Part shown: piece by piece, positions 13,856-26,700 of the stretch | How positions within the stretch are numbered: the first letter of the stretch is position 1 | Layout of the letters: each line of letters begins with the position of its first letter | Source of the DNA: Aureococcus anophagefferens | Lineage: Eukaryota > Sar > Pelagophyceae > Pelagomonadales > Pelagomonadaceae | Assembly: GCF_000186865.1 (NCBI RefSeq) | Contig: NW_008705588.1 | Span: forward strand, 70,646 to 134,645 | Reading direction: 5' to 3' | DNA: 64,000 nucleotides | Translations under genes and position numbers: made by a program | The notes under the pieces: generated by a model | What the model was told of the DNA's origin: nothing | The model's input: only the letters and a program-made list of their open reading frames with translations | Database searches by the model: none

Positions 13856-14461
13856 ATGGCACGCCGCTGCCAGCGCTTCACCGCCCTCGCCGCCCTGGTC
13901 CTCGGGGCCGAGGGCGCCCTCGACGTGAACTGCTCCGCGGCCCTCGACATCCGGTACGACATTCCGTACTACGCCTCGAAAGTCGACTGCGGGAACCTCT
14001 TCATCAAGTCCGACGTCGCCACCGTGCCGACCGTAACCTTCGCGCCGGCGAGCCCGGCCAAGGCCTACACGCTCGTCTACATCTCCACCTGCTCCCACTG
14101 CGACAAGAGCTTCCCGGACAACAGCGAGGAGGGCCTCGTCCACGTCCACTACGTCGCGGCCAACATCGACGCGGCGACGCTGTCGGGCGCCGGCGACGTC
14201 GCGAACGCGGACCAGTACTGGGCCGGCGACTTCCCGCGCCACGGGCCCGGACCGTCGCAAAGGTACAACTTCTATTTGTTTCAGCACGACGGCGCGACGC
14301 CCGCGGCGCTCAACGCGACGACGTGCTGGCCCGCGAACAACCAGTACTGCTCCCAGGCCGACTTCACGAGCGGCGTCGTCGACGCGCCCTTCTGGGACCT
14401 CGTCGCCGCCCAGTACCTCACGGGCCTCTACTACAACGACACGTTTCGCGGGGCGTTGTAA
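13856..14461 (+). CDS. Secreted PEBP-family protein
   Basis: 201 residues from the ATG at 13856, with a short signal peptide (about residues 1-21). The phosphatidylethanolamine-binding-protein fold is suggested by KAYTLVYISTCSHCD, VHVHYVAANIDAATLS and HGPGPSQRYNFYLFQH, which align with the ligand-pocket histidine and GPPxxxxHRY motifs of PEBPs. Several cysteines (CSHCD and others) are unusual for cytosolic PEBPs and fit a secreted form. The ligand is unknown. Confidence 0.72.
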   Translation: MARRCQRFTALAALVLGAEGALDVNCSAALDIRYDIPYYASKVDCGNLFIKSDVATVPTVTFAPASPAKAYTLVYISTCSHCDKSFPDNSEEGLVHVHYVAANIDAATLSGAGDVANADQYWAGDFPRHGPGPSQRYNFYLFQHDGATPAALNATTCWPANNQYCSQADFTSGVVDAPFWDLVAAQYLTGLYYNDTFRGAL

Positions 14462-14719: not shown

Positions 14720-14806
14720 ATGATCCGGCCCGTGCAAGTCGCGGAGGCGATCATCGTGCTCGTCATCCTCTTCTCGCTCTTCAAGGTCGTCACCGTCGAG
14801 GGCTGA
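14720..14806 (+). CDS. Possible 28-residue single-helix peptide directly upstream of TERT
   Basis: An ATG at 14720 opens a 28-codon frame, MIRPVQVAEAIIVLVILFSL then a short tail, with one strongly hydrophobic segment. Its TGA ends one base before the telomerase ATG at 14808 (TGAGATG). It could be a true micro-protein, an upstream ORF controlling TERT translation, or chance. There is no other evidence of expression. Confidence 0.3.
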   Translation: MIRPVQVAEAIIVLVILFSLFKVVTVEG

Positions 14807-14807
14807 G

Positions 14808-17162
14808 ATGGAGCGCCAGCTGGGCGCGCTCGAGGCGCACGCCAAGGGCGCCAAGGTCGCCGGCGTCGGCGTCGTGCGCTGGGTCGGCCCGTACAAGGAC
14901 GTGCGCACGTGGACCGGCGCCGTCGTCGAGAAGCGCGAGGTCGAGCTCGTCGACGCCGCGCTCGCTCCTCGGACGCTCGCGGTCTGGGGCCGCGCGGCGT
15001 CGCGCGCGGCCGGCGCGCTCGAGCCGCCGGCCGTCGTCTCCTACGCCGCGCGCGTGTCCGACTACGGCGGCCGGTCGCTGAACGGCGACGCCGCGCCCGC
15101 GCCCGCGGCCAACGCGGCCCTCGCGCGGCTCTTCGCGGCGCCCGGCGTCGCGGCCGCCGCGCTCGCGGCGTCGAACGCGCGGCGCGACGCCGCGGGCCGC
15201 GGCGACGTCGCGCGGCCCCGCGACGCCGCGACCTTCTCGCCGCGGGACCTCGCGCGCGGCCCGCGCTTCGCCGCGACGTGGACCCGCGCCCTGCCGCCGG
15301 GCCACGTCCTGGAGTCGCGCGCCGGCGCCGCGCGCGGCGACGGCCGCGCCGTCGCGCGCGCGGTCTTCGGTTCGCGGGCGGACGACCGGCGGACGCGGCG
15401 GCGCCTCGCGGGCGCGCTGCCGCTCTTCGCCCGGCTCAAAGCCAACTACGCGCGCGCGCCCGTCGGCCGCGTCTTCGACGCGACCTGCGGCCCCGCGCGC
15501 CGCCGGGGCGACGCGGCGGCGGCGCGCGTCGACGCGGCGGTCGTCGCGCGCTTCGCGTGCCGCGTCGTGCGGCGCGTCGTGCCGGTGGCGCTCTGGGGCT
15601 CGGCGCGCAACGAGCGGGCCGCGCTCGGCGCGCTCGACGCGCTCTTCCGCCTCGGCGCGGGCGACGCTGTGACGCCGCGGCGGCTCCGCGAGGCGCTCCG
15701 CGAGTCCGACGTCGCGTGGCCGCGCGGCGCGCCGACGCGGCGCGCGCGGCCGCCGTCGGACCTGCGGCGGAGCCGGGAGCTGCTGGAGCGCTTCCTCGCC
15801 TGGGTCTTCTTCGACGTCGCCGCGGGGCTCGTCGCCGCGCGCTTCGTTGTGAAGTTCCCGCGGGGGCGCGTCGCGTACTACCGCCGCGCGGACTTTGACG
15901 CGGTCGAGGCCGCGGCGGTGCGCGCCTGCCCGGCCCTCGCGGCGGTGGACGATGCGCCGGCGGGGTGCGCGACCCTCGCGGCCGAGCCCAAGGACGGCGG
16001 CGGCGTCCGCGTCGTGCAGCGGCTCGGCGCGCGGCCGCGCGGCGCGCGGCCGCCGGGCGCGGCGTCGCTCCACGACTGCGCGCTGGCCCTCCGCCTCGAG
16101 GCGCGGCGGAACCCGGCGCTGCTGGGCTTCGGCGGGGCGCCCGACGCGCTCTGGCGCTGCCTCCGGGCCGCCAAGGACGCGGGGGACGCGGAGGGGCTCA
16201 CGCTCGACGCGGCGCGGTGCTTCGACGGCATCGACCAGGCCCGGCTCCTCGACGTCGCCGAGGGCGCGCTGGTCTGCGAGACCTACCGCATCCACGGCGG
16301 GAAGCGGGCGACGCCGGGCGCGCCGGGCGCGGCGCCCCGGACGCGGCTCGTGCGCCGCGACGCCGTCGTCGCGGAGCTCCGGCGCCACGTGTCGGGCCAC
16401 GCCGCGCGGCTCCGCGGCGCGTGCTTCCGCCAGGTCTCCGGCATCCCCCAGGGCTCCGTCGCCTCCGCCGTGCTCTGCGACCTCTACTACGGCGCCTTCG
16501 AGCGCGCGCGCGCGCCGCCGGGGTGCCGCGCCGCGCGCGTCGTCGACGACACGTTCGCCGTCGGGCCCCGCGGCGCGCTCGCCGCGCTCGCGGACGCCTA
16601 CGCGGTCCACGGGCCGCCCCTGGGCATCGTCGTCAACGCCGCCAAGGCGCGCGCGACCTTCGCCCGCGGCGAAACCCCCGCGGCGGCCGCGCTCTCGTTC
16701 TGCGGCGTCGACGTCGCGCTCTCCGGCGGCGCCGTCGCCGCGCGCGCGGCGCCGCGGCCGGCGCCGCCGCGGGGGCCGCCGGCGGGGCGCTTCGGCCGCG
16801 CGGCGCCGCGCGACGCGGCGCTCCTCGACAGGCTGCGTCGCGCGGTCCGCGCGCGCGCGCGGCCGCCGCTCCTCGACGCCGCGCTCCTCGGCAAGGAGGC
16901 CGCCGCGGCGAACCTCCGGGACCTCTTCGCCGCCGCCGCGGACGCCGCGGCGCCCGCCGTCGCGCACCTCCGGCCGTCGTCGAAGGCCCACGTGCGCCGC
17001 GCGCTCCACGCGGCTGCGACCTTCGCCTACGCGGTCCACGCGCGCGCGGTCCGCGCCGCGAACCGGAGCGAGGCGCGGCCCCGCCTGAGCCTCTTCGACT
17101 TCCTCGCCGCCGCGGACGACGCGTGGCGGGCGTGCCGGGCGCTGCGGGCCTACGTGCATTAG
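14808..17162 (+). CDS. TERT: Telomerase reverse transcriptase with N-terminal RPA70-like OB fold
   Basis: 784 residues, single exon; the ATG at 14808 is the only methionine codon in the frame. Residues 16-105 resemble RPA70 DNA-binding domain B: VAGVGVVRWVGPYKDV, EKREVELVDA, LAVWG and SYAARVSDYGGRSLN. The telomerase RNA-binding region follows, with the CP-like VPVALWGSARN (258-268) and motif T ERFLAWVFFDV to FPRGRVAYYRR (327-360). Reverse-transcriptase motifs are 1/2 around 391-405, A with LTLDAARCFDGID (D467), B' with FRQVSGIPQGSVASAVLCDL (540-559), C with ARVVDD (D580, D581), D at GIVVNAAKARATF, E at LSFCGVDVAL, then a C-terminal extension. No canonical TEN domain is evident, and the protein is short for TERT (often over 1000). 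Confidence 0.87.
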   Translation: MERQLGALEAHAKGAKVAGVGVVRWVGPYKDVRTWTGAVVEKREVELVDAALAPRTLAVWGRAASRAAGALEPPAVVSYAARVSDYGGRSLNGDAAPAPAANAALARLFAAPGVAAAALAASNARRDAAGRGDVARPRDAATFSPRDLARGPRFAATWTRALPPGHVLESRAGAARGDGRAVARAVFGSRADDRRTRRRLAGALPLFARLKANYARAPVGRVFDATCGPARRRGDAAAARVDAAVVARFACRVVRRVVPVALWGSARNERAALGALDALFRLGAGDAVTPRRLREALRESDVAWPRGAPTRRARPPSDLRRSRELLERFLAWVFFDVAAGLVAARFVVKFPRGRVAYYRRADFDAVEAAAVRACPALAAVDDAPAGCATLAAEPKDGGGVRVVQRLGARPRGARPPGAASLHDCALALRLEARRNPALLGFGGAPDALWRCLRAAKDAGDAEGLTLDAARCFDGIDQARLLDVAEGALVCETYRIHGGKRATPGAPGAAPRTRLVRRDAVVAELRRHVSGHAARLRGACFRQVSGIPQGSVASAVLCDLYYGAFERARAPPGCRAARVVDDTFAVGPRGALAALADAYAVHGPPLGIVVNAAKARATFARGETPAAAALSFCGVDVALSGGAVAARAAPRPAPPRGPPAGRFGRAAPRDAALLDRLRRAVRARARPPLLDAALLGKEAAAANLRDLFAAAADAAAPAVAHLRPSSKAHVRRALHAAATFAYAVHARAVRAANRSEARPRLSLFDFLAAADDAWRACRALRAYVH

Positions 17163-17781
17163 GGCGGCGCGTCGCCATCCGGGCGCCCGTCGCACACGGG
17201 GGGCTCGGACTCGGACGGCCGTCTTGACTCATGTTCGTACTACAAGGGCGTCGAGACGTGTGGGGGGCGCTGAGGGGCGTCGGGGGGGGGGGGGCGGATG
17301 GGCGCACCGGACGCTTGCAAGGTGGGTCGCTCGACCCACCCCTCGAGATTTTCATCAGCTTCAGCACATGAGGGTGCCTAGGTGGGTTCGCCGGGGGTGA
17401 CGCGCGCACGACGCGAAGGACGATGGTGCGGGACGCGTAGGCGGGCACTTGGAGCTTCCGAAACGGCCTCTTTCCTCGCATAACGAGCCCCACTCTCCCC
17501 GGCGATGCAGGGCACGTGCAGAGGGCACGCGCCGAGACGTCAGCGGTCGGCGCGCGGCATCTGAGGTTGTCGTGCTTCTTCGCCACCTCTTCCCGTCCAG
17601 TGCGACCTCCCCCCGCGCCCCTAGTCTCCCCTCCGAGGCCCCGGGCACGCGTCGGGGAAAAAAAAACCGGTCCCGCGAGCGCCCTCGACGCTCGAAACAT
17701 TCCCTCGGCTTCCGTCGAAGCCGACACCACTCCACCCACGTTCCAAAGCCCCCCGAGGGGCTTAAGAAACACGCCCAGACC
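17163..17781. other. Intergenic region between TERT and the iron permease
   Basis: About 620 bases with a run of about 13 G near 17282-17294 on the plus strand and no supported gene. The permease frame stays open upstream of its ATG to about 17449, but that part reads as low-complexity Arg/Ser sequence. Confidence 0.5.
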
Positions 17782-20139
17782 ATGGGCGTCCAGGACTTCA
17801 ACGACTGGTTCTGCATCCCCGCGTTCTTCGTGCTCTTCCGCGAGACGCTCGAGGCCGCGGTGCTCGTCGCGGTGCTCATCCAGTACCTCAACCGCGCGGA
17901 CGCCAAGCACCTGAAGCGCCAGGTCTGGCTCGGCGCCGCCGTCGGCGGCGCGGCATCCGTCGCCATCGGCGTCGTCATCCTCTCCATCTACTACACGCAG
18001 AAGTCGACGATGACGACGACGACGGCGTTCGTCGTCGAGGGCGGCATGCTCGGCTTCGCGTGCGTCGTCATCACCTACTTCCTCGTCACGCACCTCGCCC
18101 CGGGCATGAAGTCGTCCGGGAGTTGGCAGGTCAAGTGGGAGCGCAACATGGACGAGCTCGTGCAGGCGCAGATCGACAAGACGAACGAGTACGGCTTCTT
18201 TACGCTCTCGTTCACGTCCGTGCTCCGCGAGGGCTTCGAGGCGGCCATCTTCGTCGTCGGCTTCGGCGCGGCCTACAGGCCCGAGTCCATGCCCATCCCC
18301 ATCGTCACGGGCATCTTCGCGGGCGTCGCGTTCGGCGCGTCGATGTTCGTCGGCACGAACAAGATGGACCTGTCGCTCTTCTTCAAGTTCTCCGCGGGCT
18401 TCCTGGCCCTCATCGCCGCGGGCCTCGGGTCCCACGCGTCCTACGAGTTCCAGAAGGGCGAGGCCTTCGGGGCCTGGGCCTGCAAGCGCATCTGCGACGA
18501 CGTCTGGGTGCCCGCGAACCCGGCGCTCTTCGGCACGTACGCGTCCTACGCGCCCTACACGGACATCGCGCCCCACGCGGCCATCGACCTCGACGTGCTC
18601 GACTTCGAGGCCGCGCTCGAGGCGGGCGAATGGGACGCCGCGTGGGCCGTCTACGCCGACGGCGCGCACAGCGCCAAGGGCGACGGCCTGCGCACGCTCC
18701 GCGGCTTCTCCAAGGACCTGAGCGGCGAGAAGACCTTCGACGAGTACATGGCCTACCACCAGAACGCCAAGTACGCGGACGACTACGTCCGCGCGGCGCT
18801 CTGGGACCGCCTCTCGGACGACTCGTCGGCCAAGGTCGACCCGCGGCCGGCGCTCTTCGCGACGGCGACGCTCAGCGACGCCATGGCCGTCGAGCTCGCC
18901 CTCAAGGGCGCCCAGTACCAGCACACGTGGATCTACTCGACGCACGAGCTCTACAGCGCGCTCGGCAAGTGCGAGGCCGGCGACGTCGACGAGGCCGCGC
19001 CGCACGCGTGGGACGAGGGCTGGGCCTTCTACGCCGGCTCGACGACGGGCGCCGACGGCGACGAGCGCGGCGCCCTCGGCTACGGCCTCGGCGAGCGCCG
19101 CTGCGCCAACTTCGGCACGTGCGCGGACGACGGCCTACCGGCCTGGCGCTCCGAGGACGAGGGCGCGGCCGCGAACGCGAACGCCAAGCTCCTGCGCCTC
19201 TACGAGGCGGGCCTCAAGGACATCCAGGACGCGGACCGCTGCGGCGACGCGCGCGCCTACGTCGACGACATCGTCGCGCAGATGACCGTGCCCCTGGTCC
19301 AGGGCACGCTCCGCTACGCGTACCGGTCGTCGCCCGAGGGCACCGCGGAGGCCCTCGGCAGCGACGGCAAGGTCTGGGCCGAGTTCCACGCCTTCGGCTA
19401 CGCCCTACTCCCCCGCGTCCACGCCTGCGACGCGAGCGCCGGCGCCGCGCTCGCCGCGGCGCTCGAGGCTCCCGACGTCATCGACGAGGCCACGGCCGGC
19501 GACCTCGTGCCCGGCGGCTTCGCGGCCGTCAAGGCCGCCCTCGAGTCCACCTACGCCTGCCTGGGCATCACCTGCGCCGACGTCGGCGGCCTCCAGGCCG
19601 GCGACGGGTCGCCCATCGAGGGCATGGGCGCGTGCGCCGACGGCTCGTCGATCGACGACGGCGCGGCGTACTTCGACGCGCTCGAGGAGATCGGCGCGCG
19701 GCCCGACGGCGACTGGGAGGAGGAGAACTGCGACGACGACGAGGCCGACGCGTCGTGGCACTCCTACCGCCGCCTCGAGGCCGAGCCCTGGTACGACGCG
19801 CTCGTCGAGCAGGTGCCCGAGGCCTACGGCCGCAAGCTCGTCACCGAGCGCGCCAAGTCGTGCGACGGCAAGGGCCAGTCCATCGCCTGGCCCAACGAGG
19901 AGGTCTGGGACATCACGGGCTGCTGCGACACCAAGAACGGCTTCTTCTTCCTCATGATGGTCCTCTTCTGGTACCGCCCGGCGATCACGAACCTCGAGCT
20001 CATCATCTGGGTCATCTACTGGCCCATCATCGCCTTCTGGGGCTGGTACAAGGTCCGCGACATCACGGACTTCAACGCCGACCTCCAGGCCGCCGCGGAC
20101 GCCAAGGGCGAGGAGGACCTCAAGCCCGAGGCGGAGTGA
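17782..20139 (+). CDS. FTR1: FTR1-family iron permease fused to an FEA1-like module
   Basis: 785 residues from the ATG at 17782 in a good context (ACCATGG). FTR1 permeases carry paired REXXE iron-binding motifs in membrane helices. Here they are R20-E21-T-L-E24 (FVLFRETLEAAVLV) and R149-E150-G-F-E153 (VLREGFEAAIFVVG). After the N-terminal helices comes a long hydrophilic, Asp/Cys-rich region (about 230-715). Residues about 380-450 there (TWIYSTHELYSALGKCE, then DEGWAFYAGS and RRCANFGTC) look like the algal iron-assimilatory FEA1 domain. Final hydrophobic helices lie at about 715-755. The likely job is high-affinity iron uptake at the plasma membrane, with the FEA1-like part as an outside iron-binding module. 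No partner multicopper oxidase is in the window. Confidence 0.85.
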   Translation: MGVQDFNDWFCIPAFFVLFRETLEAAVLVAVLIQYLNRADAKHLKRQVWLGAAVGGAASVAIGVVILSIYYTQKSTMTTTTAFVVEGGMLGFACVVITYFLVTHLAPGMKSSGSWQVKWERNMDELVQAQIDKTNEYGFFTLSFTSVLREGFEAAIFVVGFGAAYRPESMPIPIVTGIFAGVAFGASMFVGTNKMDLSLFFKFSAGFLALIAAGLGSHASYEFQKGEAFGAWACKRICDDVWVPANPALFGTYASYAPYTDIAPHAAIDLDVLDFEAALEAGEWDAAWAVYADGAHSAKGDGLRTLRGFSKDLSGEKTFDEYMAYHQNAKYADDYVRAALWDRLSDDSSAKVDPRPALFATATLSDAMAVELALKGAQYQHTWIYSTHELYSALGKCEAGDVDEAAPHAWDEGWAFYAGSTTGADGDERGALGYGLGERRCANFGTCADDGLPAWRSEDEGAAANANAKLLRLYEAGLKDIQDADRCGDARAYVDDIVAQMTVPLVQGTLRYAYRSSPEGTAEALGSDGKVWAEFHAFGYALLPRVHACDASAGAALAAALEAPDVIDEATAGDLVPGGFAAVKAALESTYACLGITCADVGGLQAGDGSPIEGMGACADGSSIDDGAAYFDALEEIGARPDGDWEEENCDDDEADASWHSYRRLEAEPWYDALVEQVPEAYGRKLVTERAKSCDGKGQSIAWPNEEVWDITGCCDTKNGFFFLMMVLFWYRPAITNLELIIWVIYWPIIAFWGWYKVRDITDFNADLQAAADAKGEEDLKPEAE

Positions 20140-23700: not shown

Positions 23701-26700
23701 CGCGCCGCGACGTCGGCGACGACCGCGTTTTCGGGGATGCCGTCGCCGCCGACCGCGGCGACGCGGTCGCCGACGGCGACGCCGAGCGCGGCCGTCGCGG
23801 CCGTCGCGTCGTCGACGTAGACGCCGCCGCCGCGCGCGCCGAGCACGAGGCCGAGCGTCCGCCCGGCGAAGGCGACCGTGCGCTCCGCCGGCGACATCGG
23901 CGGCGGCGCGGCGCTACTCAGGGCGCCGGCGACGGCGCCGAGCGCGGCGCACCACGCGCGCGCCGCGGCGTCGCGCGCCTCCGGTAGCCCCGCGGCGCCC
24001 GCGGCCTCGAGCCCCCCGGCGGCCAGCGCGCGCAGCGCCGCCGCCGCCGTCCGCAGGTCCGCCTCGGACCACTCGCAGTCGAGCGCGTCGCCGACGGAGA
24101 CCTCGCGCGCGCCGGCCGCGGCGCGAAAACGCGCGCGGCGCAGCGTCGGCAGGAGCGGCTCCCCGTCGAACGCGACCGCGACGCGCGACGCGTCCGCGTC
24201 GCAGGTCCAGGATTGGCCGCCGCCGGCGCGGTACGCGATGCGCGCGTCGACGTCGACCTCGAGGCCGCCGAGCCGCGCGCGCGCGGTAAACGCGGCGAGC
24301 GCCGCGACGGCCGCGGGCGCCGCGGGCGCCGCGGGCGCCGGCGCCGGCGCCGGCGCGGCGGGCCAGCGCGCGGCGAGGAGGCGGCCGACGTCGCAGCGCA
24401 GGCGCGCGGCGGGCAGCGCGCCGAAGCCGGCGAGCGGGTACGCCGACGGCTCGAGGACGGCGACGCCGTCGAGGACGGCGAGCCGCGCGTCCAGCGTCGC
24501 GCCGTCGCCGACGGTGCCGCTGATGACGACGCCGCAGGGCGCGGCGCCGGCGCCGCCGAGGGGCTCGAGGTCCAGCGCGGCGCCGCCGCCGGCGTCGACG
24601 GCCGGCGTCGACGCGACGGCCGCGAAGGCGCCGTCGCCGGCGCCGCGCGCGTAGGTCAGACCCGCGGGGCCAGNNNNNNNNNNNNNNNNNNNNNNNNNNN
24701 NNNNNNNNNNNNNNNNNNNNNNNNNNNNNNNNNNNNNNNNNNNNNNNNNNNNNNNNNNNNNNNNNNNNNNNNNNNNNNNNNNNNNNNNNNNNNNNNNNNN
24801 NNNNNNNNNNNNNNNNNNNNNNNNNNNNNNNNNNNNNNNNNNNNNNNNNNNNNNNNNNNNNNNNNNNNNNNNNNNNNNNNNNNNNNNNNNNNNNNNNNNN
24901 NNNNNNNNNNNNNNNNNNNNNNNNNNNNNNNNNNNNNNNNNNNNNNNNNNNNNNNNNNNNNNNNNNNNNNNNNNNNNNNNNNNNNNNNNNNNNNNNNNNN
25001 NNNNNNNNNNNNNNNNNNNNNNNNNNNNNNNNNNNNNNNNNNNNNNNNNNNNNNNNNNNNNNNNNNNNNNNNNNNNNNNNNNNNNNNNNNNNNNNNNNNN
25101 NNNNNNNNNNNNNNNNNNNNNNNNNNNNNNNNNNNNNNNNNNNNNNNNNNNNNNNNNNNNNNNNNNNNNNNNNNNNNNNNNNNNNNNNNNNNNNNNNNNN
25201 NNNNNNNNNNNNNNNNNNNNNNNNNNNNNNNNNNNNNNNNNNNNNNNNNNNNNNNNNNNNNNNNNNNNNNNNNNNNNNNNNNNNNNNNNNNNNNNNNNNN
25301 NNNNNNNNNNNNNNNNNNNNNNNNNNNNNNNNNNNNNNNNNNNNNNNNNNNNNNNNNNNNNNNNNNNNNNNNNNNNNNNNNNNNNNNNNNNNNNNNNNNN
25401 NNNNNNNNNNNNNNNNNNNNNNNNNNNNNNNNNNNNNNNNNNNNNNNNNNNNNNNNNNNNNNNNNNNNNNNNNNNNNNNNNNNNNNNNNNNNNNNNNNNN
25501 NNNNNNNNNNNNNNNNNNNNNNNNNNNNNNNNNNNNNNNNNNNNNNNNNNNNNNNNNNNNNNNNNNNNNNNNNNNNNNNNNNNNCCCGTCGGGCGCCGCC
25601 TCGCGGAGCGCGACGTCGGCGACGTCGAGCGTCGTCGCCCACGCGCCCCCCGTCGACCGCCGCGCGTAGCGCGCGCCCGCGACGGCGGCCTCGCGCCCGC
25701 CCGCGCGCGCCGCGATGCCGTCCAAGGTGACCTCGAAGGCCTCGAGCTTCGACGGCGGCGCGCCCGCCGGCGGCGCGTCGTCCCAGCCGAGCGCGCGCTT
25801 GACGCACGCCGCCGCGACGCCAAAGTCGCGGACGAGCGCGTCGCCCGTGGCGCAGGCGGCGACGGCGCCCGACGACTTGACGTGGAGGTAGCGCCGCGTC
25901 TCGTCCGGCGACGTCCAGAGCTCCGCGGATTCCAGACCCGCGACCGCGAGGCCGCCGCCGCCGGCGAGTACGGTCCCCGCGGCGTCGCCCAGAGCGGCGT
26001 CGACGGACCGCGCGAGCCAGCGGCCCCGGTGGCGCCGCCCGGCGTAGTCGTAGTCGTAGGCGACGTCGCCCCGGACGTCCAGCGCGAGCGCGGCGCCGCC
26101 GCCCGGCGCCGGGAGCGCGACGCGCGCGCGCGCGATCCGGAGCCCGAACGCGTAGTCGCCGTGTTCCGCCGGCGGCGCGTCCGGCGCGTCGAAGGCGCCG
26201 TCTTCTGTTCGCCGCTCGTGGTCGAAGCCGAACCAGTCCCGCAGGGGCCACCAGTGGCCGCCGTCCCAGACGAGCGCGGAGTCGGCGAGCGACAGCGTCG
26301 TCGCCGCGGGGCCGACACTGAGCTCGAAGGCCGGGCCGCCGCCGGCGCCGAGGGGCCGGGCGATGGCCGCGCCGTCGCGCGTCACCGTCGCCGTCGTCGC
26401 GGCCAGCGCGAAGGTCACGCCGCCCGCCGCGCGTCGGACGGAGCACGCGAGGCCCGCCGCGTCCAAATCGCCCGCGGCGGGCGCGCGGAGCCGCGCGGCG
26501 CCGCGGTCCGCCGCGATGCGGAGCGAGAAGGGCGGCCCCGGCGCCGCCGCCGGCGGCTCGTCGCCGCCGGCGACGTTGCGCCAGAGGGCCGTGCGCAGGA
26601 GCTCGTAGTCGCGGCGCGCGAGGTCGCCGCAGTCGAGCGCGTCGCAGCGCACGTCCGCGGCGACGCCGTCGTCGCCCGCGGCGACGCGCGCCTCGAGGGA

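Follow-up and report, generated by a model that had tools for sequence, protein, structure and literature searches.

Does this locus encode a telomerase reverse transcriptase (TERT) that carries an RPA-type OB domain on its own chain, and what would such a domain do there? The sequence-only reading of the window, by which we mean the whole stretch of 64,000 nucleotides analysed, had proposed that a block similar to DBD-B of RPA70 is built into TERT and stands in for the TEN domain.

The reading frame and its telomerase portion

By inspecting the frame at 14808-17162 of the forward strand, we found 784 codons plus a stop, with codon 1 as the sole in-frame ATG and both Pfam domains in frame (Table 1). 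This agrees with the earlier description of a 785-codon frame (stop included) that joins an OB block to TERT and has its only Met codon at residue 1. The 784-aa product is called P0001 hereafter. The reverse strand over the gene is likewise open (801 aa), so that openness by itself is no proof of a frame in such GC-rich DNA (73% GC of called bases in the window), and this counts in favour of an artefact, that is, an assembly joint or two adjacent genes read as one GC-rich frame. However, the reverse-strand frame gave no Pfam match with an E value of 0.01 or less. Third-position GC of the forward frame is 0.985 overall and 0.95-1.00 in each 180-bp window that lies entirely within the ORF, those in the linker among them, and it drops sharply at both ORF edges. 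Moreover, the same joint is present in six further protein clusters from ENA and JGI. Given these homologues and the uniform third-position GC across the joint, we rejected an assembly chimera or a chance open frame, and we regard an artefact of either kind as very improbable. The telomerase RNA-binding domain family PF12009 matches at a single place in the 49-Mb (49.05 Mb) genome, and the OB-TERT locus is the sole genomic match when the full-length relative P0006 is used as query. Together, the Pfam matches, the third-position GC, the single PF12009 match and the homologues, alike in start Met and architecture, indicate that the forward frame is real.

Table 1. Features of the OB-TERT locus (positions in the window)
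Feature	Position	Strand	Basis
OB-TERT fusion gene	14808..17162	+	one unbroken frame, 784 aa, both Pfam domains; single genomic place
OB domain, RPA70 DBD-B type, residues 12-94	14841..15089	+	Pfam, PDB sequence search, profile comparison
Linker, residues 95-190, Ala/Arg-rich, poorly conserved	15090..15377	+	P0001-P0006 alignment
Telomerase RNA-binding domain (TRBD), residues about 191-375	15378..15932	+	PF12009 at 246-371
Reverse transcriptase (RT), residues 376-640	15933..16727	+	alignment to human TERT, motifs
C-terminal extension (thumb), residues 641-784	16728..17159	+	human TERT profile match reaches its first part
Possible upstream short ORF, 28 aa, hydrophobic	14720..14806	+	translation

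Upstream of the start codon, an in-frame stop lies at 14721, and an upstream frame with a third-position GC of 0.92 terminates at 14461, which makes an upstream exon coding for TEN unlikely. The short ORF at 14720-14806, whose GC by codon position is 0.62/0.28/0.93, stops 1 base ahead of the TERT start codon and may either act as an upstream regulatory ORF or encode a tiny membrane protein. Downstream, one open frame at 17449-20139 (+) contains iron permease FTR1 and Fea1 low-iron-inducible domains, and its product is possibly a fused iron-uptake protein. Scanning the window with Rfam gave 0 matches at gathering scores. A dip in GC at 24001-26000 has no biological meaning, since it corresponds to a run of N (about 24675-25585; 961 N in the whole window).

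The TRBD of P0001 scores 53.7 bits with PF12009 (cut-off 25), and this family is over its cut-off in 6/6 related fusion proteins (P0003-P0008). RVT_1 stays under its cut-off of 29.6, with 10.8 bits in P0001 and 22.8 in P0006. A profile of six relatives nevertheless matches human TERT across TRBD and RT with an E value of 3.1e-27, and the RT part contains segments that we take to be motif 1/2 (PKDGGGVRVV at 394), motif A (D467), a shortened IFD, motif B' (GIPQGS at 545), motif C (D580-D581) and motif E (FCGV at 631). The catalytic residues D467, D580 and D581 assigned in the sequence-only reading align with the human TERT triad, D467 with D712 and D580/D581 with D868/D869 (human numbers taken by eye on the alignments). 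By homology, the 14808-17162 frame encodes the telomerase reverse transcriptase of a GC-rich eukaryote, probably an alga of pelagophyte type, and the enzyme is predicted to be active on a telomerase RNA template.

As for the telomeres, contig C1 opens with a 166-bp CCCTAA array (TTAGGG at the contig's very start), which suggests, from this one contig end, that they consist of TTAGGG repeats. The other exact matches to CCCTAA arrays are found on C26 and inside C4, where arrays of 458 bp (2394-2851) and 52 bp (near 2873818) lie at a distance from either end of this contig of 2,997,003 bp.

Identity and conservation of the OB domain

The N-terminal part of P0001 matches REPA_OB_2 over residues 7-92 with 36.5 bits, over the Pfam cut-off of 27, and TEN_TERT (PF11474) gives no match in P0001 at E up to 1. 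Three relatives also exceed this cut-off (P0003, 36.2 bits; P0005, 27.5; P0007, 27.1), whereas the three others fall 0.5 to 3.8 bits short of it (P0006, 26.5; P0004, 25.4; P0008, 23.2). REPA_OB_2 is found at 3 places in the 49-Mb genome, the OB-TERT gene and two distinct RPA1-like genes (contigs C15 and C22).

Several comparisons point to DBD-B as the closest RPA70 domain, as had been claimed from the letters. The N-terminal 134 aa of P0001 match RPA70 DBD-B (1fgu) with an E value of 2.6e-5 in a PDB sequence search, and the six-sequence profile matches 1jmc (RPA70 DBD-B) more weakly (E 9.3e-4), but with P0006 alone as query the PDB gave no match to an RPA chain at E up to 1. In local alignments, the P0001 OB reached z values of 12.4, 9.4 and 7.9 against three DBD-Bs, compared to values between -0.9 and 3.3 when aligned with two DBD-As, three DBD-Cs and one RPA-N. 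With hhalign, the seven OBs gave 92% for DBD-B, 3% for DBD-A and 0.1% for DBD-C. The P0006 OB scored z 7.8 and 4.4 against two of the DBD-Bs, but only 1.2 against DBD-B of the C15 RPA1 (1.5 for its DBD-C). The OB of the second lineage, to which P0006 belongs, thus appears to resemble RPA more weakly than that of P0001.

Aligning P0001 with 1fgu, we found that K42, W60 and Y86 correspond to K343, W361 and F386 of human RPA70 (human numbers assigned by spacing on this alignment). According to the available text of PMC4269926, all three human residues are crucial if RPA70 DBD-B is to bind DNA, and W361 and F386 are also named in the matched text of PMC10250233. K42 and W60 are kept in 7/7 fusion proteins, and position 86 is Y or W in 7/7. 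The AlphaFold2 models of P0001 and P0006 have low confidence, OB part included (mean pLDDT 39.8 and 38.1, respectively; 24-38 per block of ten in the first 100 residues). They were built on six-sequence alignments that omitted P0008, since its C-terminus departs from the others' frame, and P0009, since it is an RPA1. Judged from the sequence comparisons, P0001 presumably adopts an OB fold in this region.

Looking for the same fusion in other sequences, we searched with the OB region at E up to 10 and obtained 7 matches. Six are the TERT fusions P0003-P0008, and the remaining one is an RPA1 (P0009, EukProt, E 0.77). The six fusion clusters comprise 9, 5, 12, 8, 22 and 3 members. P0003 is 96% identical to P0001 throughout and is the sole relative among the 7,993 candidates scored in each of the full-length and TRBD-region protein searches, a number that Ala/Arg-rich words probably filled up. 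The five others (P0004-P0008) form the second lineage, with OBs 62-63% identical to that of P0001. Searches for the relatives' DNA in viral contigs and genome contigs found none. P0006 (788 aa) covers the full length, its longest contig measures 76 kb, and it shares 47% overall identity with P0001. P0004, P0005 and P0007 stop before motif A and P0008 departs from the alignment at the same place, a break that probably reflects an unspliced intron. Between P0001 and P0006, 51/82 positions are identical in the OB, 273/578 in the TERT core (191-784) and 27/88 in the linker, the difference between OB and core being significant (Fisher p 0.013). Eight segments were compared and none of the other seven is conserved as well as the OB, so the constraint on it seems at least as strong as that on the catalytic core. 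An RPA-type OB on the TERT chain, as first proposed, is present in 7/7 aligned proteins, and within the two lineages sampled the fusion looks real and conserved.

The missing TEN domain and the proposed role of the OB

Known TEN domains measure about 160-190 residues. Only about 95 residues separate the end of the OB (94) from the start of the TRBD (about 191), so that a TEN cannot fit between them. Searching the whole genome with PF11474 (TEN) and PF02765 (POT1) also gave no match, but the controls were silent too and absence is not inferred from these searches. Besides, motifs A and C lie 113 residues apart in P0001 and 124 in P0006, compared to 156 in human TERT (D712 to D868, numbered by eye; 43 more than in P0001) and 92 in Tribolium (D251, D343). 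In Tribolium tcTERT, TEN is missing and the IFD is truncated, according to the available text of PMC7274783, and hence a missing TEN does not bar P0001 from being a TERT. In the human enzyme, TEN and IFD-TRAP are described as working jointly and as keeping hold of the 5' portion of the DNA substrate while repeats are synthesised (matched text of PMC12920920), which makes their joint reduction in P0001 coherent. Thus, the short gap between OB and TRBD and the short IFD indirectly support the proposal that the OB stands in for TEN.

We infer that the fused OB binds single-stranded telomeric DNA and consider it quite probable that P0001 is a TERT that lacks TEN and carries its own RPA-type anchor for the telomeric overhang. 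Behind the active site, the OB would grip the single-stranded telomeric DNA and so take over the anchoring and repeat processivity that TEN and IFD-TRAP ensure in human TERT, and to which RPA or Teb1 contribute as separate subunits in other systems. The linker, presumably flexible, would let it stay on the DNA as the template moves back. We also lean towards the view that TEN was lost in these GC-rich, probably algal, eukaryotes and that an RPA70 DBD-B was captured to replace this DNA anchor, whereby RPA-type processivity would have become internal to TERT. RPA is reported to stimulate human telomerase and raise its processivity, and RPA-TERT contacts to matter in yeasts, in the text available from PMC13419711. 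The RPA-TERT contacts described there involve RPA1-W528 and RPA2 and not DBD-B, which counts against our reading. RPA1-W528 is assigned to DBD-C in the matched text of PMC10250233.

Two other roles deserve consideration. OB folds in telomerase biology are often protein-binding, and the domain might chiefly be a docking module, similar to TPP1- or Est3-type OB folds, that brings telomerase to RPA or an end-binding protein without itself holding DNA. Models described in the available text of PMC13419711, in which RPA tryptophans contact TERT in a manner precluding simultaneous DNA binding, speak for docking. However, the equivalents of the three DNA contacts of DBD-B are kept or aromatic in 7/7 fusion proteins, and the best match is DBD-B, a DNA-binding OB, rather than the one RPA-N compared, which leads us to see docking as unlikely. 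A second alternative is that the OB binds telomerase RNA near the template and helps to assemble the RNP or to position the template, given that human TEN also contacts RNA. RPA-type OB domains prefer DNA, and we find this role quite unlikely. In its favour, human TEN and IFD-TRAP are described in the matched text of PMC12920920 as touching DNA and template-flanking RNA alike.

Comparison with known telomerases and RPA factors

Like canonical TERT (human, Tetrahymena), P0001 has a TRBD, RT motifs with the catalytic triad and a C-terminal extension, but it differs from it by an N-terminal RPA-type OB and too little room for TEN. Missing TEN and truncated IFD are features shared with tcTERT, which to our knowledge has no added OB domain, whereas P0001 carries a fused and conserved one. 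With RPA70 DBD-B it has in common the OB pattern and the equivalents of K343, W361 and F386. In contrast to whole RPA1, with its tandem DBD-A, DBD-B and DBD-C, P0001 has a single OB match, without DBD-A, DBD-C or RPA-N, placed on one chain with TERT. RPA-type single-strand binding is likewise tied to telomerase by the processivity factors Tetrahymena Teb1 and human RPA. However, these are separate subunits, whereas the domain of P0001 belongs to the catalytic chain.

The sequence-only reading knew of no such fusion, and none between TERT and an RPA domain is described among the matches listed for literature on telomerase, its domains, RPA factors and algal TERT, a body of sources in which subscription journals are thinly covered. 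The precomputed Pfam labels of P0003-P0007 already display both domains, so the architecture itself was present in a database.

The sites and the manner in which RPA-type proteins act on telomerase are under active study, and a natural fusion of an RPA DNA-binding domain with TERT that is conserved between two lineages is evolutionary evidence that the pair act together. OB-TERT would offer a one-chain enzyme in which the anchor function can be tested through point mutations. If our reading is true, TEN would be replaceable by an unrelated fold.
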